A DNA stretch of 64,000 bases. Source: Luteimonas granuli (GTDB lineage Bacteria > Pseudomonadota > Gammaproteobacteria > Xanthomonadales > Xanthomonadaceae). The notes beneath the pieces are model-generated. The model was not told where the DNA came from. It did no database searches and saw only the letters and a list, made by a program, of their open reading frames with translations. This document shows positions 35,303-49,866 of this stretch, in pieces. Within the stretch, counting starts at the first letter, position 1. Each line of letters starts with the position of its first letter. The translations under genes and the position numbers were made by a program. The DNA is taken from positions 1,550,001 to 1,614,000 of the forward strand of contig NZ_CP042218.1 in assembly GCF_007795095.1 (NCBI RefSeq), in the 5' to 3' direction.

Positions 35303-37000
35303 ATGCTCCTTGCCGCCGCACGCCGCCTGACGCCGGCCGCGTTCGTCCTCGCCCTGCTGCTGGCCATGCCGGCCTGCAAGCGCGAGCCCGCGCCCGAAGC
35401 CGGCGCGCCCACCGCGGCCGTCCTGGAGCGCTCGCAGGACCCCGCCGCCCACCGCATCGAGGACGACGTCCGCGCCCTGGCCGACGACCGCATGCAGGGT
35501 CGCGAGACCGGCACCCCCGGCCACGAACTCGCCGCCGACCACGTCGCGCAGCGTTTCGCCGACGCCGGCCTGGTCCCCGGCGGCGAGGATGGCGGCTGGT
35601 TCCAGCGCGTGCCGCTGCTGCGCGCCACCCTGGACGCGGACGCGCGCCTGCAGATCCACCTCGATGGCCGGGTGCGCGCGCTGGAATTCCAGCGGGACTT
35701 CCTGCCGCTGGCCAACTTCGACCTGCCCGAGGCCTCGGTGGGGGAGGCCCCGGCGGTGTTCGTCGGCCAGGCCATCCATGCGCCCGGCCTGGGCCACGAC
35801 GACTTCGCCGGCCTGGACCTGCGCGGCAAGGTCGCGGTGATGTTCGGCGGCGCGCCGGAGCGCTTCGACGCCACCCGCCGCGCCTTCCATGGCTCGACCC
35901 GCGAGAAGCTGCAGAACGTCGCGGCGCGAGGCGCGGTCGGCGCGGTCTTCGCCGGCACGGCCGCCGACGAGGTGCGCGCACCCTGGGCCCGCAGCGCCGC
36001 CGACTGGCAGCGGCCGTCCATGCGCCTGCGCGACGCCGACGGCCGCGCGATCGACGGCTGGGCCGGCCTGGAAGTGGTGGCACGCGTGAGCGCCGCCGCG
36101 GCCGACGCGCTCTTCGCCGGCGGCGACCGCAGCGCCGCGCAGCTCGCCGACGCCGCCCGCGCCGGCACGGCCGGCGGCTTCGACCTGCCCGTGCGCCTGT
36201 CGCTGGCGGCCCGCACCCGCGTCGAGCCGCTGGACTCGCGCAACGTGGTCGGCCTGCTCCGCGGCAGCGACCCGGTGCTGGCCGACGAGTACGTCGTCCA
36301 CACCGCCCACCTCGACCACATCGGCATCGGCGCCGGAGTCGACGGCGACACCATCCACAACGGCGCCCTCGACAACGCGCTCGGCGTCGCGATCATGACC
36401 GAGGCCGCGCGCGGCCTTGCCGCCGCCGACGCGGCGCCGCGGCGTTCGCAGCTGTTCGTCGCCCTCACCGCCGAAGAGCAGGGCCTGCTCGGATCGCAGT
36501 GGTTCGCCACCCGGCCCACGATTCCCCGTGGCGCCCTGGTGGCGAACATCAACATCGACATGCCGGTGCTCACCGCGCCCAGCCGCGACGTGGTGGCGAT
36601 CGGTGCCGAACATTCCTCGCTCGCGGCGGTGGTGGCCGCCGCCGCCAGCGACATCGGCGTGCGCGTGTCGCCTGACCCCTTTCCCGAGGAAGCCGTGTTC
36701 GTGCGCAGCGACCAGTTCTCGTTCGTGCGCCAGGGCGTTCCCGCGGTCTACCTCGACGCTGGCATCGAGCCGGTCGACCCGGACCGCGACCCGAAGGTCT
36801 CCGCCACCTGGTTCATGCGCAACTGCTACCACCGCCCCTGCGACCAGGCCGACCTGCCGATCCACTACGACGACGCCGCCCGCCTGGCGCGCCTGTCGGC
36901 GCGCATCGCCGGCCTCATCGGCGACGCCGACGCACGGCCGGCGTGGAACGAGGGGGACTTCTTCGGCGAACGCTTCAGCGGCGCTGCAGGGGTACGCTGA
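35303..37000 (+). CDS. M28-family zinc peptidase, lipoprotein
   Basis: 565 aa from ATG 35303. Lipobox MPAC (Cys near residue 25). A PA-domain-like insert lies around residues 140-290. M28 zinc-site motifs are HLDHIG, NGALDNALG, TAEEQGLLGS and CYHRPCDQ. Probable exported aminopeptidase. It is the last + strand chromosomal gene before the long - strand block of the integron, and ends 60 bases from the convergent gene at 37060. Confidence 0.9.
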   Translation: MLLAAARRLTPAAFVLALLLAMPACKREPAPEAGAPTAAVLERSQDPAAHRIEDDVRALADDRMQGRETGTPGHELAADHVAQRFADAGLVPGGEDGGWFQRVPLLRATLDADARLQIHLDGRVRALEFQRDFLPLANFDLPEASVGEAPAVFVGQAIHAPGLGHDDFAGLDLRGKVAVMFGGAPERFDATRRAFHGSTREKLQNVAARGAVGAVFAGTAADEVRAPWARSAADWQRPSMRLRDADGRAIDGWAGLEVVARVSAAAADALFAGGDRSAAQLADAARAGTAGGFDLPVRLSLAARTRVEPLDSRNVVGLLRGSDPVLADEYVVHTAHLDHIGIGAGVDGDTIHNGALDNALGVAIMTEAARGLAAADAAPRRSQLFVALTAEEQGLLGSQWFATRPTIPRGALVANINIDMPVLTAPSRDVVAIGAEHSSLAAVVAAAASDIGVRVSPDPFPEEAVFVRSDQFSFVRQGVPAVYLDAGIEPVDPDRDPKVSATWFMRNCYHRPCDQADLPIHYDDAARLARLSARIAGLIGDADARPAWNEGDFFGERFSGAAGVR

Positions 37001-37059
37001 GGCCGGGAAGCCACCTCAGCGCATTGCGCAAAGCCCCGGCTCGAAGCCCCGGCGGATGA

Positions 37060-37365
37060 TCATGCGTCGTTCGGGCGGCGCCGCCGCGACCGCGCCCTCG
37101 CCAGTACGGCGTCCGCGCCAAGGTAGGGCAACAGTCCCAGGATGACGACGAGAGCCGCGTCCACAGCGCCGGGGAGCCCGGGAGCGTAGCGGGCAAGCAG
37201 ATTCGAGACGGCGTGGGGCCCGATTCCCGCGACTTTCCACAACGCCACGAGCGTCCTGAGCCGCAGCGACCCGGAGGGAAGATCCACCACGAGGAGCAGC
37301 AGGAAAAGGAACAGGGAGCCGACCCCGAGGAGCAGGAACGGATGGGTGCGCAGCCACTGGCGCAT
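37060..37365 (-). CDS. Small membrane protein, possibly most distal cassette gene
   Basis: 101 aa from ATG 37365 (MRQWLRTH). Two hydrophobic segments (FLLLGVGSLFLFLLLLVV and AALVVILGLLPYLGADAVLA), the second with the PYLGAD-like motif often seen in YkvA/DUF1232-type small proteins. First of the uninterrupted - strand block that runs up to intI. No attC-like site could be identified on its 3' side, so cassette status is uncertain. Confidence 0.6.
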   Translation of the reverse strand: MRQWLRTHPFLLLGVGSLFLFLLLLVVDLPSGSLRLRTLVALWKVAGIGPHAVSNLLARYAPGLPGAVDAALVVILGLLPYLGADAVLARARSRRRRPNDA

Positions 37366-37484
37366 GAGGCGACTCCGGATGCATGCGGTGGGGCGGACCG
37401 AAGAATGGTACCGCTCCGCGGCGCCCGCCATGACGTGCGCGGATCGCGACATGCGCACCCGGGCCCGATGCGCGCCCTCGCGCG

Positions 37485-37760
37485 CTAGCCCTCGGCCGTA
37501 CCGGGATCGATGACCGCGGTGATGGGGGTGATCCTGTCGGCCGGGAATCCGGCCTTCTCGGCGTGCTCCCGGATCAGCTGCTCATTCGATGCGTCGTAGA
37601 TGCAGTAGATCTTGTCACCTGCCACGTAGCTCTGGACCCAGGTGATCCCCGGACCCATCTCCGCAAGCACTTCGTTCGAACGCCTGGACGCGTCCCGAAG
37701 CGCTTCCCGGGACATGTTTCCGGCACCGGCCATTTCCCGCTCGATCAGGTACTGGGTCAT
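37485..37760 (-). CDS. DUF4242 domain protein
   Basis: 91 aa from ATG 37760. Ferredoxin-like small domain with the family pattern MTQYLIEREM, SQSY-like WVQSYVAGDKIYCIYDASNEQLIREHAEKAGFP, and TPITAVIDP. Some members bind nickel; function generally unknown. The start overlaps the upstream gene's stop by 4 bp (ATGA), so the two are coupled. Confidence 0.8.
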   Translation of the reverse strand: MTQYLIEREMAGAGNMSREALRDASRRSNEVLAEMGPGITWVQSYVAGDKIYCIYDASNEQLIREHAEKAGFPADRITPITAVIDPGTAEG

Positions 37761-38167
37761 CGCTTTTCTCCTGTCGCCGGATTGGCGCGGCTCGCCTTGA
37801 GTGGATTGTCTGACGCCACGTCGACTTCGATGCAACGGAGCTCATACCGTTTCCCACCCTTGACGGGGAGAGATTCAACGGAGGACCCGCGTGCATCGAC
37901 AAAGCGTCCGTGCAGATCAAGCGCGGGAAGCAGGCCTCCGGCGTGGCTGGCCGGCTCGTTCGCGTCACACCAGTCGAGAGTGTCGTTGATGCATTGCCTG
38001 TAACCGGCATCTCCCAGATCCTTGCCGGGATGCTCCCGGTTGCAGGTCTGCGTCGCGCGGTTGTAGCAGTCATCCGACCCTGCATCGGGTTGTTTCGGTG
38101 CGGCTGACGCGATTGCCGGAACGAGCAGGAGGGGCAGAACGATCTGCATCATTCGACTATTCGACAT
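37757..38167 (-). CDS. Exported small protein, unknown
   Basis: 136 aa from ATG 38167, with a strong AAGGAGGAA ribosome site. N-terminal signal peptide (VLPLLLVPAIASA) and a mature part with five cysteines (DDCYNRATQTCNREH, YRQCINDTLDWCD, LRCIEVD), suggesting disulfide-stabilised periplasmic localisation. Not recognised. Coupled to the DUF4242 gene. Confidence 0.7.
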   Translation of the reverse strand: MSNSRMMQIVLPLLLVPAIASAAPKQPDAGSDDCYNRATQTCNREHPGKDLGDAGYRQCINDTLDWCDANEPASHAGGLLPALDLHGRFVDARGSSVESLPVKGGKRYELRCIEVDVASDNPLKASRANPATGEKR

Positions 38168-38283
38168 GGCTGGTTCCTCCTTGCGGGACAGGGCCCCTGG
38201 AGGAACGCCGGATCCGGCGGGAACAGGCCATGCGCCTGACGGAGGCTCGTACGGGGGCAGGGCCGCGAGGAAGGGATCCCTAC

Positions 38284-38574
38284 CTACAACCGTCCATAGC
38301 GCTGCTTCCGCTTTTCCGTGAAGTGCCACCAGGGTTCGGGTGGTCCACCGGCCAGGAAGGACGTGACGGACATGAAGACATCCAGGACACACGGGTCCTG
38401 CCGCGTCCCTGTCGCGATGCAGAGCGACTGATAGAGATCCAGTGGATCCGCGCCGACCAGCTGGCCCGGTTCACTGTAGCCCAGCACTTCGAAGTCCCTG
38501 GCCGCGGCGGGCCCGACATTCGGCAGGTCGGTGAAGCGCTTGACCTCTTCTCTCACGACTCTGGATGGATTCAT
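38284..38574 (-). CDS. Helix-hairpin-helix (Cdd1/pathogenicity-locus type) protein
   Basis: 96 aa. An N-terminal HhH motif (FTDLPNVGPAAARDFEVLGY) is followed by LVGADPLDLYQSLC and a C-terminal FTEKRKQRYGRL. This matches the small Cdd1-like family found in mobile or accessory loci; DNA binding is likely, role unknown. Directly downstream of the IS-interrupted gene with about 18 bases between stop and start. Confidence 0.75.
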   Translation of the reverse strand: MNPSRVVREEVKRFTDLPNVGPAAARDFEVLGYSEPGQLVGADPLDLYQSLCIATGTRQDPCVLDVFMSVTSFLAGGPPEPWWHFTEKRKQRYGRL

Positions 38575-38835
38575 GGCCGCCAGCGCCCGGGGTCAGGTCG
38601 ACTCTCGCCGGCGCCACCGGTCCCCCGGTGCCTTGAAGTAATGCCGGAAGACATGGTTCCACGGAATCACGATGGGTACCAGCACCACGCCCATGAGAGT
38701 CGCGAACAGTGTTTCGGACGCGTACTCGTCCAGCCCGGGGCCCAACTGTCACCGCCGACGTAAAACTGACCCACCCGCGCCGATGTAAATCTGACCCACC
38801 CGGGCGAGGATGGCGGTCTTTTGGAGGCCGCCTGG

Positions 38836-40622
<1,787 letters not shown>

Positions 40623-41006
40623 GCGCCCGAGGTGGGTCAGATTTCAATCGGCGATAACGGGCCAAAGTGGGTCAGATTTCAGTCGGCGTTGACACAACCA
40701 CATGGGTATGGCGGATGCCACGACCCAGATGAGCTTCCACAGCAACTCGAAGAGGAGCAGGGGAAGCATTCGCAGTGGATATCGCAGCCCCAGCAGACAC
40801 ATCACGGCCAGCGCTCCCAGGAGAGCGCGGATCACCGAGTTGGGCCCCGCCACCAGGCTTGCCGGGGCGATGATGTGCGGCCAGATCGTGACTGCCAGGC
40901 CCATCGCGACAAGCAGGTACATGGCTCGAAGCAGGTACAGCCTCAACGTGCTGACGTCGTTCATGTGGCGCCGCTCCCGGGATGGATGGATTGTCAGCTG
41001 TCCTTT

Positions 41007-41351
41007 CTAGAACTCACGACCGTTGACCGGCACCCGCGGGATGCGCTCCAGCTCGATGTCGTCCAGGCAGCGCACGTTCACCGCGGCCGTTTCCACTCCG
41101 TCCGGGCGCCGCCCGATGCTGAAGGGCTGGCTGCCGCAGTCCGAGCAGAACTGGTGCCTGATGACGTGCTTGTTGAACGTGTACGTGGTGAGCTTCTCCT
41201 GGCCAGCCACGACCACGAGGGCCGACTCCGGTACGAACCAGAGCAGCAGGCCCTTGCTGCTGCAGTGCGAACAATTGCACTCGATCGCCCTGTCGGGTTG
41301 GCCTTCGGCGGTGAATCTGACGGCGCCGCAGTGACAGCTTCCAGACTGCAT
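41007..41351 (-). CDS. GFA-domain protein (cassette)
   Basis: 114 aa from ATG 41351. GFA/CENP-V fold with the zinc cysteine pattern SCHCGAVRF, CNCSHCSSKG and FCSDCGSQPF. Family members include glutathione-dependent formaldehyde-activating proteins, but most are of unknown substrate. A GTCAGCT core-like motif lies just 3' (40993-40999, + strand), without a recognisable partner half. The second GFA-type gene of the array; the other is at 45034-45681. Confidence 0.85.
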   Translation of the reverse strand: MQSGSCHCGAVRFTAEGQPDRAIECNCSHCSSKGLLLWFVPESALVVVAGQEKLTTYTFNKHVIRHQFCSDCGSQPFSIGRRPDGVETAAVNVRCLDDIELERIPRVPVNGREF

Positions 41352-41460
41352 GAGTGCTCCCAGGACCGCTGAGGTCCGGATCGATCCCGCCGCGTAGCGG
41401 CAGAAGCCGGAGAATGACACGTCTGGCGCCCGCTATGCACCATGCGTGCGTGCGCTTCTC

Positions 41461-41802
41461 TCAGGACTGCGGGTCGTACCCGAAGACTCGCAGCTCCTGG
41501 TCACAACGACAGGCCTTGGCGATACGTGCGGCCCATGCGACAGCCTCGCCTCGCGAGGTCAGCTCCAGCACGGTGAAGCCTCCGTTGAGCGGGGGCGCCC
41601 AGGGGTAGCCGCCCTGGGCAATCGCACCCGTCGCCGAAACCAGCACGGGAGGCACGCCCTCGTCGATTCCCCCGCCGAAGACGTAGACACCTGCGGCCTT
41701 CGCCTCCTCGATCACGACATGAGAGTCGCGGACCACCGCCTCCCATTCATCGTCAGGCACAACCATTGCGGCGCCGGGAAAGGAAATCAGGTACTTGGCC
41801 AT
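41461..41802 (-). CDS. YCII-like domain protein (cassette)
   Basis: 113 aa from ATG 41802. Begins MAKYLISFPGAAM and contains PPLNGGFTVLELTSRGEAVAWA and the C-terminal CDQELRVFG, the pattern of YCII-related, ferredoxin-like small proteins often grouped with transcription factors or dehalogenase-like functions. RBS AAGAGGAG about 6-13 bases upstream. The TGA at 41461 is followed by a decayed attC-like region (41352-41460) whose halves I could not assign. Confidence 0.82.
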   Translation of the reverse strand: MAKYLISFPGAAMVVPDDEWEAVVRDSHVVIEEAKAAGVYVFGGGIDEGVPPVLVSATGAIAQGGYPWAPPLNGGFTVLELTSRGEAVAWAARIAKACRCDQELRVFGYDPQS

Positions 41803-41820
41803 AGTGCCGACTCCTCTTGG

Positions 41821-41910
41821 ATCTGACGGCCGGGCTCTCTCGACCGGCATCGATCCATCGATGTGAGCCCGATCACCTCTACGGGCGCCGGCCTGAACGC
41901 ATTGTCAGGC
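41821..41910 (-). other. attC site, 90 bp, variant cores
   Basis: On the - strand it begins GCCTGAC (41904-41910), continues AATGCGTTCAGGCCGG and ends CGGCCGTCAGAT (core GTCAGAT at 41821-41827 on +). The cores have TC in place of the canonical TT. It ends the cassette of the gene at 41905-42159, whose TGA stop is inside the first core. Confidence 0.7.
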
Positions 41911-42159
41911 CGCTGCCGCCTGGCGCCCATGCCCTCTCGCGGAGCGCCAGCCCAGTAGACGAGCCGGCAGGAAGAGAATCGCCTGCAGGAGCGCAAACAT
42001 CGCGCCGCAGGTGATGCCCACCAGGCGGAACGGCAGGGAAAGCAGCCAGGCAAGCGGCCAGAGTACGAGCGCCAACAAAGCGAGTGGCCAGCACAGAACA
42101 AAGAGGATGCACCAGGCAACCACACCCACGAAGGTCATTCCCAAACTCCTTGCCGCCAT
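41905..42159 (-). CDS. Small membrane protein (cassette)
   Basis: 84 aa; two or three hydrophobic segments (GMTFVGVVAWCILFVLCWPLALLALVLWPLAWLL, then GITCGAMFALLQAILFL). Not recognised. ATG 42159 has GGCAAGGAG-like purines downstream rather than upstream, so the ATG at 42138 (MTFVGVV, with AAGGAG upstream) is an equally good start. The TGA lies in the attC core. Confidence 0.65.
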   Translation of the reverse strand: MAARSLGMTFVGVVAWCILFVLCWPLALLALVLWPLAWLLSLPFRLVGITCGAMFALLQAILFLPARLLGWRSARGHGRQAAAA

Positions 42160-42175
42160 GTGACACGGCTCCGTT

Positions 42176-42264
42176 GGTTAGATTGACGCGCTGGATAATG
42201 CCTGGCAATGGGTTTGCGACGAAGCGCCCGATAGCCCGACGAAGCGGGATTACTGGCGCTAGGC
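42176..42264 (-). other. Degenerate attC-like site
   Basis: Reading the - strand: GCCTAGC (42258-42264) in place of GCCTAAC, then a dyad-rich stretch with repeated CTTCGTCGGG / GCTTCGTCG, ending near ATCTAACC (42175-42182). The halves no longer pair well. Position, between a stop codon and the next start, is as expected for a decayed attC. Confidence 0.4.
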
Positions 42265-42609
42265 CGCGCCCGAGCCTTGTGCGAGAACCAGAAGCGCGGC
42301 GCCAAATGCCACCCATGCGGCCGCCGTGGCAATTATTGCAGCAAGTGACAACCGGCGAGCCAATGTTGCGGAGCCGCTCCTCCGCCAGATAAAAGTAGCG
42401 GACCCTACGGCGGCCAGCGATGCCAGAATCACGACAGCAGCGGGCCAGGGCGATATGGCGACGTACGTGGGGCCGTCGCCGCCGAGCTGCGCGACGTGCC
42501 AGATAACCACTGCCAGACAGAGGATGGCGACAGAAAAAAGCAGAGCGCCTGCGGCCATGAGGAACCCTGACCAGCGGACTAGTGAGTTTGAACTGTGGAT
42601 GACGTCCAT
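42259..42609 (-). CDS. Membrane protein (cassette)
   Basis: 116 aa with three hydrophobic segments (GFLMAAGALLFSVAILCLAVVIWHV, PAAVVILASLAAVGSATFIW and LSLAAIIATAAAWVAFGAALLVLA). No family recognised. Its TAG stop sits in the mutated core GCCTAGC. Confidence 0.7.
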   Translation of the reverse strand: MDVIHSSNSLVRWSGFLMAAGALLFSVAILCLAVVIWHVAQLGGDGPTYVAISPWPAAVVILASLAAVGSATFIWRRSGSATLARRLSLAAIIATAAAWVAFGAALLVLAQGSGAA

Positions 42610-42613
42610 AGCG

Positions 42614-42720
42614 GGATGACAGTCAAGCCGAGACTCGTAGTGGGGCGAAGCACATGACAGGCTGTACCCGCCATGTGGTTTTCGGAGCGAAGCGGCATCG
42701 GCTGGAATGAATTGTCAGTC
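42614..42720 (-). other. attC site, 107 bp, variant cores
   Basis: - strand: GACTGAC (42714-42720), AATTCATTCCAGCCGATGCC, a central hairpin around CATGTGC-type sequence, then CTCGGCTTGACTGTCATCC (core GTCATCC at 42614-42620 on +). The CAGCCGA / TCGGCTTG inner arms pair as in classic attC sites. The TGA of the upstream lipoprotein gene lies in the first core. Confidence 0.7.
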
Positions 42721-43266
42721 GCTAGTCGCCGAATGCTCAAACTTGATCTTTGCACCGTTCATCAACCGCATAAAGGGCTCCGTAGGCGACAACTTCAAGT
42801 CTGCCCACAGAGTGACCTCAGTGGGGTTTGCTGGCACTTTTGAGAATGGCGCGCTGACGCTGAACTCAAAGCCTGTCGGGTCCTGTACGAGTACGTGGCG
42901 CTGCAGCAGTTGGAGCTGACGAGCGCCGTCAGAGCTCAGCGCCAGCAAGTACGTGGACACAGGGATGTCTGCCTTGAACACTCCGCCAGGGCGTGACTCC
43001 TTGGTCACGCCAAGAAGCGACAGCTTCATCGCGGCCGAGCGAACTCCGGACGGGGTTGTGAGAGACAAACCCAGATGGCTTTCGGGAACGTCGATCTCGA
43101 AGTCTGCCGGCACGGATATCTTGACCCGGACTTGTGTGGGGTCAATCTGTGCCAGGGCACGAGGTGACATCGACGACAGGTTCAGGACAGTGGCAAGCGG
43201 GATGGATGCGCAGCCGCCATTTAGAGCCATCATCATTGTCAGCACTACCATCGCAACAGCTCGCAT
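42715..43266 (-). CDS. Putative lipoprotein (cassette)
   Basis: 183 aa. Signal peptide with lipobox LNGGC (Cys19), then a beta-rich soluble domain (TQVRVKISVPADFEIDVPES, GLSLTTPSG, FEFSVSAPF). No recognised family. ATG 43266. The TGA lies in the attC core that follows. Confidence 0.72.
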   Translation of the reverse strand: MRAVAMVVLTMMMALNGGCASIPLATVLNLSSMSPRALAQIDPTQVRVKISVPADFEIDVPESHLGLSLTTPSGVRSAAMKLSLLGVTKESRPGGVFKADIPVSTYLLALSSDGARQLQLLQRHVLVQDPTGFEFSVSAPFSKVPANPTEVTLWADLKLSPTEPFMRLMNGAKIKFEHSATSD

Positions 43267-43279
43267 GACTTCACCTGAC

Positions 43280-43391
43280 AGCTAACATCTGAATCAGGGC
43301 GGCCCGCTCAGTGGTGCGGAACACATGGCAAGCTCTTTCTGCCATGCGGGCCGCGTAACGAAGCGGCTTCGGCCGGAACGCATTGTCAGGC
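43280..43391 (-). other. attC site, 112 bp, long variable hairpin
   Basis: - strand: GCCTGAC (43385-43391), AATGCGTTCCGGCCGAAGCC GCTTCG, a hairpin CATGGCAG...CTTGCCATG, then GATTCAGATGTTAGCT (core at 43280-43286). Its central hairpin is the same type as in the attC at 46400-46508, so the two are related although far apart in the array. It contains the TGA of the VOC gene. Confidence 0.75.
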
Positions 43392-43769
43392 CGCGGCCGG
43401 GACCCGCCAAGGCGGATTCTTGCGGTTCTGCCCGGCCCAGAAGAGGCAGAGAGTGTTGCCAGAGGGGTCCTGGAGCCTGGCCTCGCGCCAAAGCCCGCGC
43501 TCATCCGTCGGGAGCCTGGAGAAGACAAAGCCGCGCTTCTGCAGCTCCACCACCCGCGCATCCAGATCGGTGCACTCGAAGTACACCACAGCGCCATTCG
43601 ACGCCGAAGGAGCGTCCGACAGATGGACCGAAAAGGTTGCTTCGCCCTCAGGGCACTCAAACCTCGCGTAGTGAGGCGAATGAACGATGAGCGTGAATCC
43701 CATGCCTTGGTAGAACGCGATGGCTGCGTCGGTATCCACGACGGGAAGTGTCACCTGGTTCAAGTTCAC
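43386..43769 (-). CDS. VOC-family protein (cassette)
   Basis: 127 aa from ATG 43769. VOC fold: NQVTLPVVDTDAAIAFYQGMGF at the N-terminus and EARLQDPSGNTLCLFWAG at the C-terminus (Glu/His metal-ligand positions). It may be a glyoxalase-like lyase or a drug-binding protein. RBS AGGAGG-like (GGGAGG) lies about 10 bases upstream. The TGA lies in the attC core. Confidence 0.87.
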   Translation of the reverse strand: MNLNQVTLPVVDTDAAIAFYQGMGFTLIVHSPHYARFECPEGEATFSVHLSDAPSASNGAVVYFECTDLDARVVELQKRGFVFSRLPTDERGLWREARLQDPSGNTLCLFWAGQNRKNPPWRVPAAA

Positions 43770-43786
43770 TGCGGTCCCTCCTGGCG

Positions 43787-43866
43787 GCCCAACGCTTGAG
43801 TCAAGCCGGCGTCTTCTGCCATGTGTTGATGGAACGAAGCAAATTCGGCTCGAGCGAACTCCTAGT
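43787..43866 (-). other. attC site, one canonical core
   Basis: - strand: mutated first core (GACTAGG, 43860-43866), AGTTCGCTCGAGCCGAATTT, a central hairpin, GCCGGCTTGACTCAAGC and canonical GTTGGGC (43787-43793 on +). The GAGCCGA / CCGGCTTG arms pair. The first core has lost the AAC, but the recombining core is intact. Confidence 0.65.
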
Positions 43867-43872
43867 CCTCAG

Positions 43873-44319
43873 CTAGAGCACTTGGATCTGTAATGCGTCG
43901 GTGACCCGCACATGCGTCTGGTAGTAGTACTTTCCGCTGGGCTTGCCGCCTACAACGAAGTCGATCCTCGTGCGACGTGCAGTCCCTGAGACGAGAATAC
44001 GCTTGCCTTTAAGCGCTACCTCAGGGGGAGCGTGGAGAAGGGCCTCCAGCTCCTCAGCGGCACTTGGCATTACCGCAATGGAAAGGTTCCGCGGATCTCG
44101 ATAATCCGCTTCGGAGTTGAGGTGGACCCTGTTTGTGCGGCCCGTTGCTTTTACGGTCATGGCGAACACACCGGTTAAGCCAGTCCTTGGGGCCGCAGCC
44201 GCTTGAAGCACCGCTTGACCAGGCTCGATCCAGGGCAACGTCGATGGCGCAGGAACGCTCGCACAGCCGGCAGCCCAAGCAAGGATGAGAATGAGGGTTG
44301 TTGCTTTCCAGAAGTTCAT
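43873..44319 (-). CDS. Putative lipoprotein (cassette)
   Basis: 148 aa from ATG 44319 (AAAGGA upstream). Lipobox WAAGC (Cys19). The mature domain is beta-rich (VFAMTVKATGRTNRVHLNSEADYRDPRNLSIAV is its centre), ending with a repeated-strand GKRILVSGTARRTRIDFVVG. It resembles small OB-like exported proteins; not recognised. TAG stop lies 7 bases before the attC. Confidence 0.72.
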   Translation of the reverse strand: MNFWKATTLILILAWAAGCASVPAPSTLPWIEPGQAVLQAAAAPRTGLTGVFAMTVKATGRTNRVHLNSEADYRDPRNLSIAVMPSAAEELEALLHAPPEVALKGKRILVSGTARRTRIDFVVGGKPSGKYYYQTHVRVTDALQIQVL

Positions 44320-44362
44320 AGGAATCCTTTCGTGAGGATCAGCCGCCCGCCCCTGGACCGAG

Positions 44363-44593
44363 TTAAGCCGCGGACCGCTGCAACCTTTGCGCTGCCAGCT
44401 CAGTGCGTGTGGCCGCCAGTTCGGCTGCGATACGCCCCAACTCTGCGTTGGTCCTCTTTGACTCCTCGATGATCGCGGCAAGCTTGTCTTTCGTGCCAAA
44501 GATCGCAAAAGGAAGCAAGAACCACAGCAGTGCGAGTACAAAGAGAAACAGGATGATGATGAGGCCGAAGCCGCCCCCCAGTAGATCAGCCAT
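44363..44593 (-). CDS. Small membrane protein with helical tail (cassette)
   Basis: 76 aa. One long hydrophobic N-terminal helix (FGLIIILFLFVLALLWFLLPFAIF), then an amphipathic helical tail rich in Ala/Glu (KLAAIIEESKRTNAELGRIAAELAATRTEL), probably oligomerising. The TAA stop falls in a GCGGCTTAACTC stretch that matches the L' arm of an attC; the rest of that site is missing (about 44338-44376). Confidence 0.72.
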   Translation of the reverse strand: MADLLGGGFGLIIILFLFVLALLWFLLPFAIFGTKDKLAAIIEESKRTNAELGRIAAELAATRTELAAQRLQRSAA

Positions 44594-44649
44594 CTCTAAC
44601 TCCCCCTGAGTTGATGTTGCGGATCACAAACAGAACTGGCCCCTGTGAG

Positions 44650-44697
44650 GCCTAAGCCGCGCCGCGAAGAAGCGTCGGCTCGGACGAACTGTCAGGC
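44650..44697 (-). other. attC remnant with deleted terminal arm
   Basis: - strand: GCCTGAC (44691-44697), AGTTCGTCCGAGCCGACGCT, TCTTCGCGGCGCGGCTTAGGC. An intact site would read CGGCTTAA...GTTAGGC. Here the segment between the two TTA copies is gone, leaving CGGCTTAGGC, which is what a slip or deletion between short direct repeats would leave. The recombining core is destroyed, so the flanking cassettes should now move only as one unit. Confidence 0.65.
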
Positions 44698-44699
44698 GG

Positions 44700-45032
44700 C
44701 TACCGCCACCTCGCGAGCTCGCCTGACACATACTCGGAAATCTCGCTGGTGTTCTTGATGAACTCCGCCTCGAGATCGACGCCGCACTTGTTGGCCAGGA
44801 CCATAATCGACCACAAGCAATCGGACAGTTCGTGGCCTATTTTCGCCTGATGATCTTCAATGGTTCGGACGCCGGCGTGCGCTTGGATCAGCTTTGCAAG
44901 ATCGCCGACATCGCCCATGAAGCCAAGCGCCAACTCCTGCGTGGTCCAGACGCGACCCCACCGTTTGACCTCCAGCTCTTCGTAGAGACCATTGAGCTCA
45001 AGCGCTGCTTCTTCGAGATCGCTGAATTTCAT
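44700..45032 (-). CDS. MazG-like nucleotide pyrophosphohydrolase (cassette)
   Basis: 110 aa. All-alpha NTP-PPase fold: LNGLYEELEVKRWGRVWTTQEL, LGFMGDVGDLAKLIQAHAG and the C-terminal HELSDCLWSIMVLANKCGVDLEAEF. The metal-binding acidic residues (ExxD-type pattern HELSD) are present; the upstream EExxE motif is replaced by GDVGDL, so activity should be tested. ATG 45032 is one base after the upstream fusion gene's TGA, a tight translational coupling with no attC between them. Confidence 0.82.
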   Translation of the reverse strand: MKFSDLEEAALELNGLYEELEVKRWGRVWTTQELALGFMGDVGDLAKLIQAHAGVRTIEDHQAKIGHELSDCLWSIMVLANKCGVDLEAEFIKNTSEISEYVSGELARWR

Positions 45033-45033
45033 T

Positions 45034-45681
45034 TCATGCTCCCAGCGGCTCCGAGATCACGCCCTGAATCCATTCGATGTAGTGGCTCAAGCGGACATTA
45101 CAGGTCAGCTGGCCATAGAGCCCTGGCCGCGTGGCCCTGACATCGCCGTGAATGAATCCCCAGGCGGACAGCCCGACCAATACCCATTGGTCATTGATCT
45201 GGACGAGCGCCGGTCCGCCGCTGTCTCCGCTTCCAGTTTTGCCCTCAAGGGGCAGGGCTGACGAGGACTCGTCGAAAACATAGCAGAACCAGCGCTCATG
45301 AGCACTGGTGATCGTGTTGAACGCGCGGCGAAGCTCCGTGCGGTTGGGACCGCGGACGTCATGCCCAGCGTTGAAGCCGTATTGGTCGGGATTGGACCGG
45401 CGTTGGTGGTGCGTGTAGATGCCGCAGTTGCCACAGAAGTAGTGCTTGGCAGTACGGGTGTTGAACTCGTAGAGCTTGAGATGCTCCGAGCCTTTGACGA
45501 TGCGAATCCCCGATAAGGAAACCGAGGCCACCACTGCACCCTTGCGACGGCAGATGGAACAGTCGCAGCGCCGGGGATCAACGATGCCCTGTGGCAGATC
45601 AAGCTCGAGCTCCACCGAGCCGCAGTGACACGTGGCACGGTGCTTGGCCAGGACAGGCACGCCGCCGATCTCTTTGAGCAC
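45034..45681 (-). CDS. GFA domain fused to C-terminal half of trypsin-like protease (cassette)
   Basis: 215 aa from GTG 45681 (GGGAGAG about 6 bases upstream). Residues 1-110 form a GFA domain with the zinc pattern CHCGS, CDCSICRRKG and CGNCGIYTHH, ending at NAG where family members continue NAGC. From about 112 the sequence changes to the C-terminal part of an S1 protease: TGSGDSGGPALVQ (catalytic Ser region), LVGLSAWG and RPGLYGQ...HYIEWIQ. The protease half with His and Asp is absent, so proteolysis is unlikely. It looks like a chimera of two genes. An upstream open extension to 45825 crosses the attC and is rejected. Confidence 0.8.
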   Translation of the reverse strand: MLKEIGGVPVLAKHRATCHCGSVELELDLPQGIVDPRRCDCSICRRKGAVVASVSLSGIRIVKGSEHLKLYEFNTRTAKHYFCGNCGIYTHHQRRSNPDQYGFNAGHDVRGPNRTELRRAFNTITSAHERWFCYVFDESSSALPLEGKTGSGDSGGPALVQINDQWVLVGLSAWGFIHGDVRATRPGLYGQLTCNVRLSHYIEWIQGVISEPLGA

Positions 45682-45699
45682 CTCGGACTCTCCCTTGAG

Positions 45700-45757
45700 G
45701 CCTGACACCAGAATCAAGCCGCGCCGCGAAGCGGCGTCCGCTGGAACAGCGTCAGGC
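45700..45757 (-). other. attC site, 58 bp, variant cores
   Basis: - strand: GCCTGAC (45751-45757), GCTGTTCCAGCGGACGCCGC, TTCGCGGCGCGGCTTGATTC, TGGTGTCAGGC (core GTCAGGC at 45700-45706). Compact site with the GCGGCTTG arm and GCCGCTTCGCGGC hairpin of classic short attC sites, but both cores carry TC/GA instead of TT/AA. The TGA of the upstream gene lies in the first core. Confidence 0.75.
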
Positions 45758-46096
45758 TCCACGTGCTGTATGTGCGAAGCCGGTCCGAAATGTAACGAGT
45801 TGGTGGAAACAATAAATGCCCCCAATCAAGCTTATCGTCACATGGAGCAACAAAGCCGCCCAGTACGCTTTCGTGCGCTCCAAGGGAGCAGGCATAGCCA
45901 AGTTCTGCAGAATGCCAGGCAGCTCGGGCTGGAAAGCGTCGATCACGACCATGGCCATGAATGTCAGCGACGCGGCAATCCCACTGGACCACCCGACCAC
46001 GCCCGCCACCCGAGGAGCTACACCACGCACCAAGTAAGCGATACAGACTATCGCCAGAGCAGCATAGATAATCATCGGAAATGTTTGTTGGTTCAT
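45752..46096 (-). CDS. Membrane protein (cassette)
   Basis: 114 aa from ATG 46096 (MNQQTFPM). Four hydrophobic segments (IIYAALAIVCIAYLVRGVA, VVGWSSGIAASLTFMAMVVI, AYWAALLLHVTISLIGGIY). Not recognised. The TGA stop lies in the attC core. Confidence 0.68.
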   Translation of the reverse strand: MNQQTFPMIIYAALAIVCIAYLVRGVAPRVAGVVGWSSGIAASLTFMAMVVIDAFQPELPGILQNLAMPAPLERTKAYWAALLLHVTISLIGGIYCFHQLVTFRTGFAHTARGA

Positions 46097-46100
46097 ATGG

Positions 46101-46123
46101 GTTCCAACACGCCTTGTTAGGCT
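46101..46123 (-). other. Truncated attC remnant
   Basis: - strand: canonical GCCTAAC (46117-46123) followed at once by AAGGCGTGTTGGAA. The central arms are missing, and the second core-like GTTGGAA (46101-46107) lacks the final pyrimidine. It separates the genes at 46176-46364 and 45752-46096 and is probably non-recombinogenic. Confidence 0.45.
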
Positions 46124-46175
46124 GCCCGCGGCCAACGGCGGAATCCGCTACTGAAGCTTGCGGGCATGGCCTGCA

Positions 46176-46364
46176 TTAGTGGGGTTCAGAAGGCTGGCTG
46201 CACGTCCCGCTGTAGCCATCCAGGTACCCGCGGGCAAAGTCCGGAAAGCCCCCCAAGAAAAGTGCAATGCCTGCCACTACAAGAACGTACCGATTGTTCT
46301 TTGCAAACCCAACAAGAAGTAGAACAAGACCAAGTAGAGCAAACGCAATCCCGATCCACTGCAT
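46176..46364 (-). CDS. Small two-helix membrane protein (cassette)
   Basis: 62 aa from ATG 46364 (MQWIG). Two hydrophobic helices (GIAFALLGLVLLLVGFA and YVLVVAGIALFLGGF) and a short polar tail ending GTCSQPSEPH. Not recognised. The in-frame extension to 46451 runs into the neighbouring attC and is rejected. Confidence 0.6.
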   Translation of the reverse strand: MQWIGIAFALLGLVLLLVGFAKNNRYVLVVAGIALFLGGFPDFARGYLDGYSGTCSQPSEPH

Positions 46365-46399
46365 TTTCGGTCCTCCGACACGAATTTTTCGGATGCGAG

Positions 46400-46508
46400 G
46401 CCTAACACCTAAGTTAAGCCGAGACGCGCAGTGGAGCAAAGCACATGGCAAGCTTTATCTGCCATGTGCTTTGCGTAACGAAGCGGCTTCGGCTTGAACG
46501 TGTTAGGC
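46400..46508 (-). other. attC site, 109 bp, canonical cores
   Basis: - strand: GCCTAAC (46502-46508), ACGTTCAAGCCGAAGCCGCT, TCGTTACGCAAAGCACATGG, a perfect-looking central hairpin (CAAAGCACATGGCAGATAAA pairing with AGCTTGCCATGTGCTTTG), CTCGGCTTAACTTAGGTGTTAGGC (core 46400-46406). Both cores match GTTRRRY. The TAA of the VOC gene lies in the first core. Confidence 0.9.
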
Positions 46509-46862
46509 CTCAGGCTCCGACCACACAGCGAGCTCATTGCCACCGGGCTCTGTGAAATGGAACCTGCGACCACCTGGGAAAGCAAAGATTGGCTTGACCA
46601 AGTCACCGCCTGCAGCCTCGACTTTGCGGAGCGTACCTTCGAGGTCGTCACTGTAAAGGACGATAAGTGCGCTTCCTGCTTCTGTGCGAGCCGCCAAATT
46701 AGACCTGAAGAATCCGCCATCCAGTCCTTGGTCGGAAAATGCGACGTAGTCGGGACCGTAATCCTCGAACGCCCAGCCGAATGTCTGGCCGAAGAATCGC
46801 TTCGTTCCCTCCAAGTCTCGCGAAGGGAACTCAACGTAGTTGATCTTCTCGTGTCGCGGCAT
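46503..46862 (-). CDS. VOC-family protein (cassette)
   Basis: 119 aa. VOC domain: INYVEFPSRDLEGTKRFFGQTFGW at the N-terminus, and RFHFTEPGGNELAVWSEPEA at the C-terminus with the Glu metal-ligand position. Closest in style to single-domain glyoxalase/antibiotic-resistance-like cassette proteins; substrate unknown. GCCAGCAATG precedes the start with no strong RBS. The stop TAA is supplied by the attC core. Confidence 0.87.
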   Translation of the reverse strand: MPRHEKINYVEFPSRDLEGTKRFFGQTFGWAFEDYGPDYVAFSDQGLDGGFFRSNLAARTEAGSALIVLYSDDLEGTLRKVEAAGGDLVKPIFAFPGGRRFHFTEPGGNELAVWSEPEA

Positions 46863-46876
46863 TGCTGGCTCCTGAG

Positions 46877-46936
46877 GCCTAACGCCAGAATTAAGCCGAG
46901 CTGCGAAGCGGCTCCGGCTTGAATGAATTGTTAGAT
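46877..46936 (-). other. attC site, 60 bp, canonical cores
   Basis: - strand: ATCTAAC (46930-46936), AATTCATTCAAGCCGGAGCC, GCTTCGCAGCTCGGCTTAAT, TCTGGCGTTAGGC (core 46877-46883). Nearly identical in design to the short attC sites of mobile-integron cassettes (AAGCCGA...TCGGCTTAA arms). It contains the TAA of the gene at 46931-47557. Confidence 0.93.
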
Positions 46937-47557
46937 TTCACCGCCGGACCGCAGATCTTGCAAGATCACAAGATAGTGGTTGGCGATGAGGTCAAATCCA
47001 AAGCGCAAATCCAAGAAGGGAAAGTTGCACTGTCTTCCGAAGACATGCTCAAACACGGCATTCAAGTTCTTTCCGTGAGTATCAAAGCTTGCAATGCGAT
47101 AGACGAGGTACAAGTAATCCAGCCTGTCGCCGTGATCATTTTTTAACTGAGCGAGCATGCTCTTCACGTCTAGCGCAGCAGGAAGGCCTGCCCAGGTCGG
47201 ATCTGCAGCTTCAATTTGTGATTTCTGTGGAAATAGGTTCTCGTTGTAGAGCTTTAGATAGTCGCGCTTGAAAGAGTTTACAAACTCCTCATAGCGCGCC
47301 CCGCGAGTGGCAGGGGCATCAAATATGTACGCATGCCAGAAAAACCCTTCAATGACCGACCTCGCCAGAATGTGCGTTATGTAGCGCTCATCCACCGAAC
47401 TCTTGTCGAGCTTCATGTTCTCCAACAGGGTGCCAGCGATCGAGTGAAACCGCATGACTTCTTGGCCGAAGTGACGGAGTGCGCCTGTCATATCTCCAAG
47501 CTTCTGGAAAGTTGGCAGCTCCGACTTGAGCAGGGCGAAGTGATCTGGACTTGGCAT
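46931..47557 (-). CDS. DUF5677-like helical protein (cassette)
   Basis: 208 aa, mostly helical, Phe/Tyr/His-rich and of low GC for this genome. The core RSVIEGFFWHAYIFDAPATRG and DYLYLVYRIASFDTHGKNLNAVFEHVFG resembles DUF5677-type proteins, whose biochemistry is unknown. The family assignment is tentative. The stop TAA lies in the attC core. Confidence 0.75.
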   Translation of the reverse strand: MPSPDHFALLKSELPTFQKLGDMTGALRHFGQEVMRFHSIAGTLLENMKLDKSSVDERYITHILARSVIEGFFWHAYIFDAPATRGARYEEFVNSFKRDYLKLYNENLFPQKSQIEAADPTWAGLPAALDVKSMLAQLKNDHGDRLDYLYLVYRIASFDTHGKNLNAVFEHVFGRQCNFPFLDLRFGFDLIANHYLVILQDLRSGGEI

Positions 47558-47571
47558 GGACTCTCCGTGAA

Positions 47572-47631
47572 ATCTAACGCCTGAATTAAGCCGACCCGCG
47601 AAGCGGGTTCGGCTTGAATGAATTGTTAGGC
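47572..47631 (-). other. attC site, 60 bp, canonical cores, intI-proximal
   Basis: - strand: GCCTAAC (47625-47631), AATTCATTCAAGCCGAACCC, GCTTCGCGGGTCGGCTTAAT, TCAGGCGTTAGAT (core GTTAGAT 47572-47578). The best-preserved site: the AAGCCGA / TCGGCTTAA arms pair with the expected unpaired bases. It terminates the first cassette and supplies its TAA. Confidence 0.95.
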
Positions 47632-48120
47632 ACTACCGCCGTCACTTGCCTTGTCAGCAAAAGTGCGAACCGCGTTGTGATGCCTATAGATGAGAACTGC
47701 AGCGGCAAGCGACACCGCCAGGAACACCACTGCGCCCGCAGGAGACATGTGCCAGATGAGTGAAACGACGGCTATGAGCAGGAGGAGCATGCCGGAAATG
47801 GCGAAAGCAGCAGCAACCAAGGAACCCTTGGGGCTGTTGAAATGCTCATACGATGGCTTTCCGCAGAACATGTACGCCTCAACATACTGCCAAGCGGCGA
47901 TCCAAGCGGGAATTGCGAAGATTGCAGAGTAGAGCGCGATCTCTAGCGCCCTACTATCGAGGCTTGTCTGTAGCAAAAGCAATATCACGCCGAGTGCAAT
48001 GCCAGCGCCGCCTATAGCTTGGGTCCTCATACGTTCGAGCGTGGCCTCCGTAAGCCGCTCAGTTACGGCCGTGCGCATGCCCTTGGCGTAGAGACTGTTG
48101 AAGTCGCGCTGATCTGTCAT
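47626..48120 (-). CDS. Four-TM membrane protein (first cassette)
   Basis: 164 aa. A polar N-terminal helix (about 1-32) is followed by four hydrophobic segments (IGGAGIALGVILLLLQ, ALYSAIFAIPAWIAAWQYV, VAAAFAISGMLLLLIAVVSLIW and AVVFLAVSLAAAVLIY). Not recognised. It is the most recently inserted position, next to attI, and therefore the best expressed if an integron promoter fires. The stop TAA is provided by the attC core. Confidence 0.8.
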   Translation of the reverse strand: MTDQRDFNSLYAKGMRTAVTERLTEATLERMRTQAIGGAGIALGVILLLLQTSLDSRALEIALYSAIFAIPAWIAAWQYVEAYMFCGKPSYEHFNSPKGSLVAAAFAISGMLLLLIAVVSLIWHMSPAGAVVFLAVSLAAAVLIYRHHNAVRTFADKASDGGSA

Positions 48121-48125
48121 GTGGT

Positions 48126-48290
48126 GCCTAACACTAAGTAGATCTCAAAAACGGAATGTAGCAGGTAGCCTCGCTCCGCGCCCTGCGAGTTCAAGCAAGA
48201 AAAATCCCACCCGAAATCAGGCCCTTGTCGCCTACCCATGCGCGCCCACAGCGGTAATGATTCCGGCAAATACCCCGTTGATGAGGCGGT
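48126..48290 (-). other. attI region and leader of the integron
   Basis: The insertion-point core reads GTTAGGC on the - strand (48126-48132 on +), 6 bases upstream of the first cassette's ATG. The roughly 160 bases between it and intI should hold attI, the IntI binding sites, the intI promoter and possibly a cassette promoter. A LexA-like box and a clear Pc were looked for and not found by eye. A TTGAAC (about 48189-48194, - strand sense) without a good -10 is the nearest candidate. Confidence 0.7.
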
Positions 48291-49367
48291 ATGTCATACC
48301 GGGCCAAGAGTGAGGCGGTAACCAGCGCTGCGGGGGACAGCGGCGCTTCCTCCGGCGCCCAGCGGCCCGCTGCGGGTTTCCCCGGATCCGGATCCCCCGC
48401 GCCGAACGGATCCCCCAATCTCCTCGACCAGATCCGCATCCGCTGCCGCGCGAAGCACTACAGCATCCGGACCGAACGCGCCTACGTCGGCTGGGCGCGC
48501 CGCTTCATCCTCGCCAACGACCGGCGCCATCCACGCGATCTCGGCCTGGCCGAGATCGAGGCCTTCCTCTCCGCACTCGCGGTGCGCCACGACGTCGCGG
48601 CCAGCACCCAGAACCAGGCGCTGGCCGCGCTGCTGTTCCTCTACAGGGAGGTGCTGGGGCTGGAGATGCCGTGGGTCGGGTCGGTCACGCGTGCGAAACG
48701 GCCGAAGCGCTTGCCGGTAGTGCTGACGCATGCGGAGGTGCGTGCGCTGCTGGCGCTGCTCGACGGGCAGGCGGCGCTGATGGGCTCGCTGCTCTACGGC
48801 GCGGGCATGCGGCTGATGGAGGCGGTGCGGCTGCGGGTGAAGGACGTCGACTTCGGGCGCCACGAGATCCTGGTCCGCAACGGCAAGGGCGGGAAGGACC
48901 GGAGGGTGCCGCTGCCGCGCAGGCTCGAGGCCGGGCTGCAGGCCCAGATCGAACGCGTGCGGGTGCTGCATGCGCGCGATCTGGCCACCGGGCACGGCGA
49001 GGTGTGGCTGCCGCACGCGCTGTCGCGGAAGTATCCGACCGCGGGGCGGGAGTCCGGCTGGCAGTGGGTCTTCCCGGCATCGCGGCTGTCGGTGGATCCG
49101 CGGAGCGGCACCCGCCGTCGCCACCACGTGGACGAGGCGGTGCTGCAGCGCGCGGTCAAGGCGGCGCGGGTGGCGGCCGGCATCGACAAGCCGGCGACCT
49201 GCCACACGCTTCGGCACTCCTTCGCGACGCACCTGCTGGAATCGGGCCACGACATACGCACGGTGCAGGAGCTGCTCGGGCACAAGGACGTGGCCACGAC
49301 GCAGATCTATACGCATGTGCTCGGGCGCGGCGCGGGCGGCGTGCTGAGCCCGCTCGATCGCGATTGA
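48291..49367 (+). CDS. intI: Integron integrase IntI
   Basis: 358 aa tyrosine recombinase from ATG 48291 (GAGG about 6 bases upstream). The first 45 residues are a Gly/Pro/Ser-rich extension before the usual [22 protein letters not shown]. Catalytic residues are all present: Arg174 (GAGMRLME), Lys199 (NGKGGKDR), His305/Arg308 ([13 protein letters not shown]), His331 (LGHKD) and Tyr340 (TTQIYTH). The IntI-specific extra segment is intact ([20 protein letters not shown], then [11 protein letters not shown]). It excises and inserts cassettes at attC x attI. Divergent from the array; nothing suggests inactivation. Confidence 0.96.
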
Positions 49368-49386
49368 GCGCGTTCGATCGCGGGAG

Positions 49387-49866
49387 CTACGGCGACGGCA
49401 GTGGCAGTCCGCGCATCGGCTTCACCGTGCGCAGCACGAAGCTGGAGTTCACGTCGCCCACGCCCGGGCGGGCCAGGACGCGGTCCAGCAGGAAGCGCGA
49501 GAAGTGCTCGAGGTCGCCCACGGCCACCTGCAACAGGTAATCCATGTCGCCGGTCAACGCATGGCAGGCGACAACCTCGTCCCATTCGTTGACCCCGCGT
49601 GCGAAGTCGGCGACGGCCGCGGCGTCGTGGTGGTTCAGGCGGATGCGGACGAAGGCGGTCAGGCCAAGGCCGAGGCGTTCGCGATCCAGTTCGGCGCGGT
49701 AGCCGGCGATCACCCCGCTGCGCTCGAGCCGCTGCACGCGCCGCAGGCAGGCCGAGGGCGAGAGGTGCACGCGCTCGGCCAGTTCGGCATTGCTCAGCCG
49801 GCCTTCGCGCTGCAGCTCGGCGAGCAGCTGGATGTCGATGCGATCGAGGGTGTCGGGGGCAGTCAT
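49387..49866 (-). CDS. Lrp/AsnC-family regulator
   Basis: 159 aa from ATG 49866. N-terminal HTH (LSNAELAERVHLSPSACLRRVQRLERSGVI) and C-terminal RAM/ligand domain (DYLLQVAVGDLEHFSRFLLDRVLARPGV). It lies divergent from phhA with a 239-bp gap, so it probably senses an aromatic amino acid and controls that gene. It ends 19 bases after the intI stop; the integron therefore abuts this locus. Confidence 0.92.
   Translation of the reverse strand: MTAPDTLDRIDIQLLAELQREGRLSNAELAERVHLSPSACLRRVQRLERSGVIAGYRAELDRERLGLGLTAFVRIRLNHHDAAAVADFARGVNEWDEVVACHALTGDMDYLLQVAVGDLEHFSRFLLDRVLARPGVGDVNSSFVLRTVKPMRGLPLPSP

Follow-up and report, generated by a model that had tools for sequence, protein, structure and literature searches.

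The window analysed here is a stretch of 64,000 nucleotides from Luteimonas granuli (contig NZ_CP042218.1, positions 1,550,001 to 1,614,000); the genome is a single contig of 2.92 Mb, and the integron described below is located on the chromosome. A complete integron integrase gene (intI) adjoins an attI site, and divergent from intI runs a tract of about 19 small minus-strand genes, interspersed with attC sites, between a gene for an M28 peptidase on one side and genes for Lrp and a phhA-type hydroxylase on the other. The original prediction, made from the sequence alone, had named this gene run and these flanks, and its proposal of a chromosomal integron is borne out by the agreement of attC models, intI, and attI; neither of the outcomes that it had listed as refuting (intergenic gaps without an attC model match, or the same genes in the same order in all relatives) was found. 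Coordinates are those of the window, and the genomes (G) and loci (L) compared carry our own labels. The integrase gene and the recombination site beside it are:

48291–49367, plus strand: intI, integron integrase of 358 amino acids (PF00589 and PF13495; match to PDB 2a3v; catalytic residues)
48126–48162, minus strand: attI core with the crossover box GTTAGGC at 48126–48132, at the end of a block common to 8 genomes

The intI frame is free of stop codons and frameshifts. Among solved structures, IntI best matches the integron integrase 2a3v (E 5e-92), with an alignment that covers residues 7–317 of the 318-amino-acid piece used; the structure listing itself names 2a3v IntI4, and we take it to be a Vibrio integrase. 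The protein is a tyrosine recombinase with the IntI-specific segment that marks integron integrases, the residues R174, K199, H305, R308, H331, and Y340 stand in the 358-amino-acid frame where the original prediction had put them, and activity in recombination is predicted. An N-terminal extension of ~40 amino acids is a variable linker. We tentatively take 48291 as the start of intI, since relatives repeatedly show a start of the form M-S/P-Y-R/H, spaced in frame. An operator role was considered for the dyad CGGTATGNCATACCG, located at this start, and rejected: the genome has exactly one copy of the dyad, and its looser version in relatives is likewise spaced in frame and corresponds to start codons. 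Among the best 80 of 207 loci, the named species with the closest IntI proteins are Luteimonas colneyensis (94%), L. arsenica (90%), and L. terricola (87%). Across the 64-kb window, an Rfam scan gave no family at the gathering score, and a tRNA search gave no match.

Reading from intI towards the array, the block present in 8 genomes ends TACT(T/A)AGTGTTAG(G/A)C, at which point eight-way agreement stops; because the shared block ends at GTTAGGC, the crossover box was placed there. Pairs of genomes (e.g., G072 and G071) agree slightly beyond the attI box, as expected with a common first cassette. An attI site therefore lies beside intI, as in an integron, and since intact intI adjoins the array, the locus is not an attC cluster without intI (CALIN).

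By length, attC candidates taken from other genomes formed two classes, ~60 nt and ~110 nt, for which two covariance models were built: R1 (60-nt class) from 34 sites, namely 31 hand-picked from 40 random picks of 227 distinct candidates and 3 further, and R2 (110-nt class) from 24 of 40 random picks from 175 distinct candidates. Training included no window site: one row identical to such a site was removed, as were reversed rows and near copies. The training sites all come from the genus and its relatives, and attC of other make-up could escape. Over the 64 kb, R1 matched 7 places and R2 8 places, all on the minus strand (E <= 0.01), and their union is 8 attC sites between 42614 and 47631, a one-way array of the kind that defines an integron, recovered with the window held out of training. 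The covariance-model search of the gaps that the original prediction had proposed as a check has thus yielded matches to both models, although its count of about 14 cassettes with attC is reduced to 8 sites, half of them degraded. The recognised sites, from intI outward, followed by more doubtful remains, are:

47572–47631, minus strand: attC, 60 nt, intact (R1 84.5 bits, E 4e-22)
46877–46936, minus strand: attC, 60 nt, intact (R1 75 bits)
46400–46508, minus strand: attC, 109 nt, intact (R2 124.5 bits; fold z -8.4)
45700–45757, minus strand: attC, 58 nt, near intact (R1 51 bits)
44634–44697, minus strand: attC, degraded on the R' side (R1 29.6 bits; R2 22.4 bits at 44643–44697)
43787–43867, minus strand: attC, degraded (R1 19.8 bits, E 0.007; R2 22.9 bits, E 1e-4)
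43280–43391, minus strand: attC, 112 nt, mutated (R2 81 bits)
42614–42720, minus strand: attC, 107 nt, R' eroded (R2 66 bits)
46100–46122, minus strand: probable collapsed attC of ~23 nt, with R''-like and R'-like boxes and the hairpin gone (R2 only 9 bits at 46102–46122)
41821–41910, minus strand: attC remnant, left half exact (half-site 41890–41908, 0 mismatches), right half lost (whole: R2 13.6 bits, noise level)
40979–40997, minus strand: half-attC fossil (3 mismatches; fold z +0.8 for 40930–40999)
37794–37812, minus strand: possible half-attC fossil, weak, inside the 3' end of the open reading frame (ORF) 37757–38167 (3 mismatches; fold z -0.2 for 37760–37814)

The scores of the better model, outward from intI, are 84, 75, 124 (long), 51, 30, 23, 81 (long), and 66 (long) bits, against noise ceilings, taken from the best unrelated place, of 17.5 bits for R1 (at 18167) and 13.5 bits for R2 (at 39113); the weakest site, at 43787, is not far above noise. 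With filters off (36900–49400), R2 recovers all 8 sites and R1 only four (47572, 46877, 45700, and 44634), because long loops are no longer bridged. Plus-strand echoes at five of the 8 places, one of them of 56 bits, are expected of palindromes. Approximately four sites are near canonical and four degraded, and elsewhere the gaps hold half-sites, one collapsed site, or nothing. A half-site pattern, composed after the sites had been seen, matches 8 times, always on the minus strand, where 0.11 matches are expected (0 of 100 shuffles reach 8); five of these matches fall inside the eight attC sites, and the other three are the fossils at 41890, 40979, and 37794. The boxes at the two ends of a cassette agree in 7 of 7 bases in five of 10 intervals, all within the first six; identical boxes at both ends are expected of cassettes and hence support an integron. 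Near attI, the four best sites have bottom strands that fold better than shuffled sequences (z -4.7, -3.2, -8.4, and -2.3), with z values of -0.7, -0.1, -1.9, -2.1, -2.3, +0.8, and -0.2 for seven other folded stretches. The covariation score of the 60-nt class is 0.162 vs. 0.056 for shuffled alignments, none of 500 shuffles being as high.

The genes of the tract, from attI outward, are as follows:

47626–48120, minus strand: cassette 1, membrane protein, function not assigned by family (ORF; no Pfam match above cutoff)
46931–47557, minus strand: cassette 2 (c46931), DUF5677-like, below the Pfam cutoff (ORF; 58% homologue in an attC array of another genus)
46503–46862, minus strand: cassette 3, glyoxalase/VOC superfamily (PF00903, E 5e-11)
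46176–46364, minus strand: cassette gene, small membrane protein (ORF; no Pfam match above cutoff)
45752–46096, minus strand: cassette gene, membrane protein, no family (no Pfam match; present in 1 of 348 genomes of the order, the window's own)
45034–45702, minus strand: cassette gene c45034, GFA-domain protein (PF04828), in the same attC interval as the 44700 gene
44700–45032, minus strand: cassette gene, MazG-like, below the cutoff in the Pfam scan
44363–44593, minus strand: cassette gene c44363 (49-amino-acid stretch 71% identical to a G071 cassette between two attC sites)
43873–44319, minus strand: cassette gene, probable lipoprotein by eye (no Pfam match)
43386–43769, minus strand: cassette gene c43386, glyoxalase/VOC superfamily (PF00903; 80–81% homologues between intact attC in G036 and G071)
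42715–43266, minus strand: cassette gene (no Pfam match)
42259–42609, minus strand: cassette gene, membrane protein (no Pfam match above cutoff)
41905–42159, minus strand: cassette gene c41905 (77% and 81% over 66–67 amino acids; the G036 and G071 homologues adjoin M28, beyond the last good attC)
41461–41802, minus strand: cassette gene c41461, a bona fide cassette in G071 (87–89% homologues)
41007–41351, minus strand: cassette gene c41007, GFA-domain protein (PF04828, E 1.5e-17)
38593–40964, minus strand: membrane-protein gene interrupted by an IS21-type element (open frame on either side of the insertion, read apart)
38747–40694, plus strand: IS21-type insertion sequence (IS) with istA 38821–39849 and istB 39846–40622 (PF00665, PF01695; CAAC target duplication)
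38284–38574, minus strand: distal gene c38284, Cdd1 family (PF11731; 81% G036 homologue between 45-bit and 19-bit attC matches)
37757–38167, minus strand: distal gene, secreted protein by eye (ORF; no Pfam match for 37790–38167; no homologue in 140 loci)
37485–37760, minus strand: last tract gene c37485, SCO4226-like (PF14026)

Pfam cutoffs were passed by 6 of the 20 proteins scanned (two glyoxalase/VOC, two GFA-domain, one Cdd1, and one SCO4226-like), and VOC matches alone do not indicate drug resistance. PADLOC, applied to 10 of the ~19 cassette proteins, gave no match to a defence model. Cassette 2 occurs in 2 of 348 genomes of the order and the 45752 gene in one, the window's own being counted in both, while cassette 3 has homologues in 102 of 348. 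At 10 of 11 cassette 3 homologue loci besides the window's own there was no attC match, and at the remaining one a weak match of 15.8 bits; these homologues lie mostly outside arrays, and cassette 3 therefore says little on cassette movement.

The half-site fossils suggest that the tract extends to ~37.5 kb, through the IS21-type element; the left edge originally drawn at 40993 is too far right, having stopped just before that element. The istA/istB pair, inverted ends, and target duplication identify an IS21-type element. Three identical copies are present in the genome, a sign of recent movement, and the other two have 5-base duplications.

The address of the integron was followed in a survey of 52 genomes of the genus, with intervals or interval ends read for 31 other genomes. 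phhA is present in 51 of the 52 and an M28 homologue in all 52, that of G070 at the level of a paralogue only (33%); Lrp adjoins phhA in all genomes with intervals read, except G006. In G004 and G025 (L153, L157), M28 and lrp are direct neighbours, with an empty gap of 33 to 84 nt. Contiguous intI-bearing intervals contain 44 (G018), 69 (G072), 91 (G036), 115 (G071), and 33 (G075) attC matches, each array on a single strand. The largest, in G071 (L119–L122), occupies ~66 kb between phhA and M28; in the arrays L111–L122 the 60-nt and ~110-nt classes are mixed within one array, and in G075 (L123–L124) ~22 kb between M28 and the last attC lack a recognised attC site. Among 16 intI-free intervals scanned, one clear attC was found, in G012 (L160 6577–6634; 48.7 bits with R1, 35.6 with R2), a genome that keeps this single attC at the lrp site and has its intI elsewhere; the intI-free interval L163 gave one match only, at noise level (14.6 bits).

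The original prediction had left open whether, away from the ilvD position of Xanthomonas, this was a different lineage or a relocated array. That question is settled in part: the address is lrp-phhA, not Xanthomonas ilvD, and is occupied by intI in 16 of the 32 genomes of an anchor tree (M28, PhhA, and Lrp; 32 rows). The tree, which leaves out 20 of the 52 genus genomes (among them G007, with intI beside phhA), requires two changes of occupancy, most simply explained by one gain and one loss in G010/G012. Such a vertically kept chromosomal address is what characterises a sedentary chromosomal integron, although the 8 attC sites of the window fall short of the ~20 or more cassettes of the large sedentary type, compared with 33–115 in five relatives. 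Beyond the genus, Pseudoxanthomonas spadix (L060) and P. broegbernensis (L101) also have an occupied lrp-phhA address, with distant IntI proteins; because these occurrences lie outside the anchor tree, the site may have been occupied before the genus arose, or on more than one occasion. A literature search, itself thin, did not find the lrp-phhA address named. Elsewhere in the order, the neighbours of intI are comEC, mfd, ilvD, and other genes (one representative of each Pfam-tested). At 18 loci (L097:2197–4578 included), intI is followed by a gene that in its representative has ComEC-type competence domains, i.e., the integron lies beside a DNA-uptake gene; literature on an integron beside comEC in Lysobacter was sought and none found. 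At 13 loci (L067:1989–5615 included), intI is near a gene whose representative is mfd, encoding the transcription-repair coupling factor. These counts are of loci, not genomes, and some contigs appear twice (e.g., L070/L146, L078/L148).

Cassette content differs between relatives. In the related M28-phhA intervals that were read, homologues of window cassettes are limited to c43386, c41461, c38284, c41905, and 49 amino acids of c44363, all in two genomes (G036 and G071) and at different positions, so that gene order is not conserved. G018, whose IntI is closest to that of the window (among the best 80 of 207), shares none of the window's cassettes despite its 44 attC sites. At other addresses, four loci contain weak matches (29–36%) to c41007, c45034, and c43386, and L065 contains a 51% match to c37485, on the opposite side of intI from the array. 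Cassette movement is evident from c41461 and c43386, which are differently placed in G036, G071, and the window, and from the homologue of c46931 in an attC array of another genus. A crude sharing table (longest ORF per interval) placed 1 of 8 window intervals in G071 and none in G036, fewer than direct tblastn, and was not used.

The same cassettes allow erosion to be read site by site. c41461 is flanked by attC of 74.4 and 72.6 bits in G071 and of 27 and 65 bits in G036; in the window, it lies between the remnant and a string that aligns with an intact site, although the site itself is lost. In G036 and G071, c43386 stands between sites of 109–122 bits; in the window, one of its neighbouring sites is degraded and the other mutated. 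Part of c44363 shows a contrast of the same kind, the flanking sites being intact in G071 and eroded in the window. The homologues of c38284 and c41905 are also in the poor distal part of the relatives, and these two therefore give no sign of fresh loss. Three of the 8 window sites score below half of their class maximum, compared with 0–5% in 14 other arrays or array ends, and a drop in site quality with distance from attI is suggested.

Taken at the level of sequence, the locus at lrp-phhA is very probably the sedentary chromosomal integron of a Luteimonas species, one whose integrase is intact and whose short array is eroding. Several observations weigh against this interpretation. Roughly half of the recognised attC sites look damaged, and folding separates good sites from bad ones poorly, the remnant at 41821–41910 itself folding at z -2.3. 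Two of five covariation measures are not clearly above shuffles (both-side-changed pairs, 24 of 500; further pair types, 426 of 500). The comparison of site scores favours the other arrays, some of whose sites, but none of the window's, went into training the models; within the window, site score shows no significant rank correlation with distance (rho -0.62, p 0.10, n = 8). Finally, the genes at 37485 and 37757, which have no homologue in related intervals, may never have been cassettes.

The same damage might instead mark a dead integron, in which IntI may still be made while the array is static and all of its genes are fixed. This we regard as doubtful but the most serious of the alternatives: degradation of about half of the recognised attC sites, an IS within the tract, and far larger arrays in five relatives are all compatible with it, but intI is free of stops and frameshifts and shares 94% identity with its counterpart in L. 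colneyensis (among the best 80 of 207), attI is intact, and the three sites nearest to it are canonical. The first three cassettes have no homologue in related intervals, as would be the case with recent capture, yet other genomes carry relatives of cassette 3 outside arrays. A second alternative, no integron at all but an ordinary series of small genes separated by repeated palindromes, would fit the distal third of the tract, where no full attC site exists; with intI, attI, one-way attC, and the same cassette differently placed in different species, it is hardly credible, and the attC model matches obtained with the window held out of training already refute it. A recently landed mobile integron of the class 1 type is very improbable as well. 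Xanthomonadales attC are described as similar to those of many resistance cassettes in passages of PMC8352920, but the closest IntI proteins (among the best 80 of 207) are those of other Luteimonas at the same address, Lrp/phhA flank the integron directly, the address is common to half of the anchor-tree genomes, and no mobile element was recognised at the integron ends, where no special search beyond the internal IS was made.

For the sedentary integron, by analogy with established systems, IntI would recombine attI with the folded bottom strand of attC and so capture circular cassettes. New genes would enter beside intI, with older ones shifting towards the M28 gene; cassettes with a mutated attC could no longer be excised and would remain as resident genes. 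A short array would result if the loss of intact cassettes outpaced the retention of new ones.

The history of the integrase may not simply follow that of its address. In an IntI tree made by a quick method (97 rows minus one duplicate), the genus proteins at the lrp site form three groups, A, B, and C, with the window in group A. Their union as one clade was rejected in the AU test (p 0.0012), as were A with C (p 0.00026) and all 17 rows with the lrp-phhA address, Pseudoxanthomonas included (p 8e-7); B with C (p 0.23) and A with B (p 0.07) were not rejected, the pairwise groupings having been picked after the tree was seen. The window's own IntI group follows the anchor tree except for a small difference in the window's place. 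Between the sister species G020 (L138) and G065 (L136), identity is 97% for both Lrp and PhhA and 92% for M28 but only 71% for IntI; between G075 (L124–L125) and G005 (L128), also sister species, it is 97%, 97%, and 91% for the flanks and 72% for IntI. The matching IntI alleles cross between the two pairs (86% and 90%). The intI and lrp matches are 7–49 nt apart in 9 of the 12 genomes compared and ~1.2 kb apart in three. Replacement of intI in place would explain these data better than repeated insertion at one point, repeated use of a single site being the less likely possibility. At DNA level, however, G020 and G065 contrast only modestly (intI 77%, the 1.2 kb behind it 82%), which weighs against a swap.

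We lean slightly towards a view in which lrp-phhA is a fixed docking address, occupied once in the clade or earlier, at which the integrase has been swapped between species at least once; address, integrase, and cassettes would then have three histories, and species with 0–115 attC would form a natural series of growth and decay. Points against it are the occupied address in Pseudoxanthomonas, the modest contrast at DNA level, and a grouping of A with B that was not rejected. Within one genus, the same flanking genes enclose nothing, a single attC (G012), a decaying array (the window), or arrays of 33–115 sites, and a single species tree could be used to date the growth and loss of arrays. Integrase alleles seem to have been swapped while the junction stayed unchanged, much as reported for X. 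arboricola, which would suggest a more general route.

This kind of element is well known, and the window adds one eroding example with an intact integrase. Passages of other reports mention Luteimonas attC (PMC11089894), discuss integrase control in Xanthomonadaceae (PMC3108266), and describe a cassette in the integron of a Luteimonas isolate (PMC7085159). Xanthomonadales-like attC are reported from Luteimonas among other genera in PMC8352920; the sites described here belong to the same order and genus and are attC of this lineage, but were found with our own models rather than the published one, and a second class, of ~110 nt, is as common in some arrays. Compared with the sedentary integron of Vibrio cholerae, the IntI sequence and residues and the large one-way arrays of the relatives are similar, whereas the window's own array is small and decayed. 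A further parallel is with the chromosomal integron of Xanthomonas at ilvD, for which PMC12444791 describes substitution of the integrase at a fixed address in X. arboricola. Both have an old, vertically kept address, erosion (there, of integrase and array in some lineages), and replacement of the integrase, proposed in the case of Luteimonas; the Luteimonas integron differs in its lrp-phhA/M28 address, in an IntI that is intact while the array decays, and in relatives with up to 115 attC.

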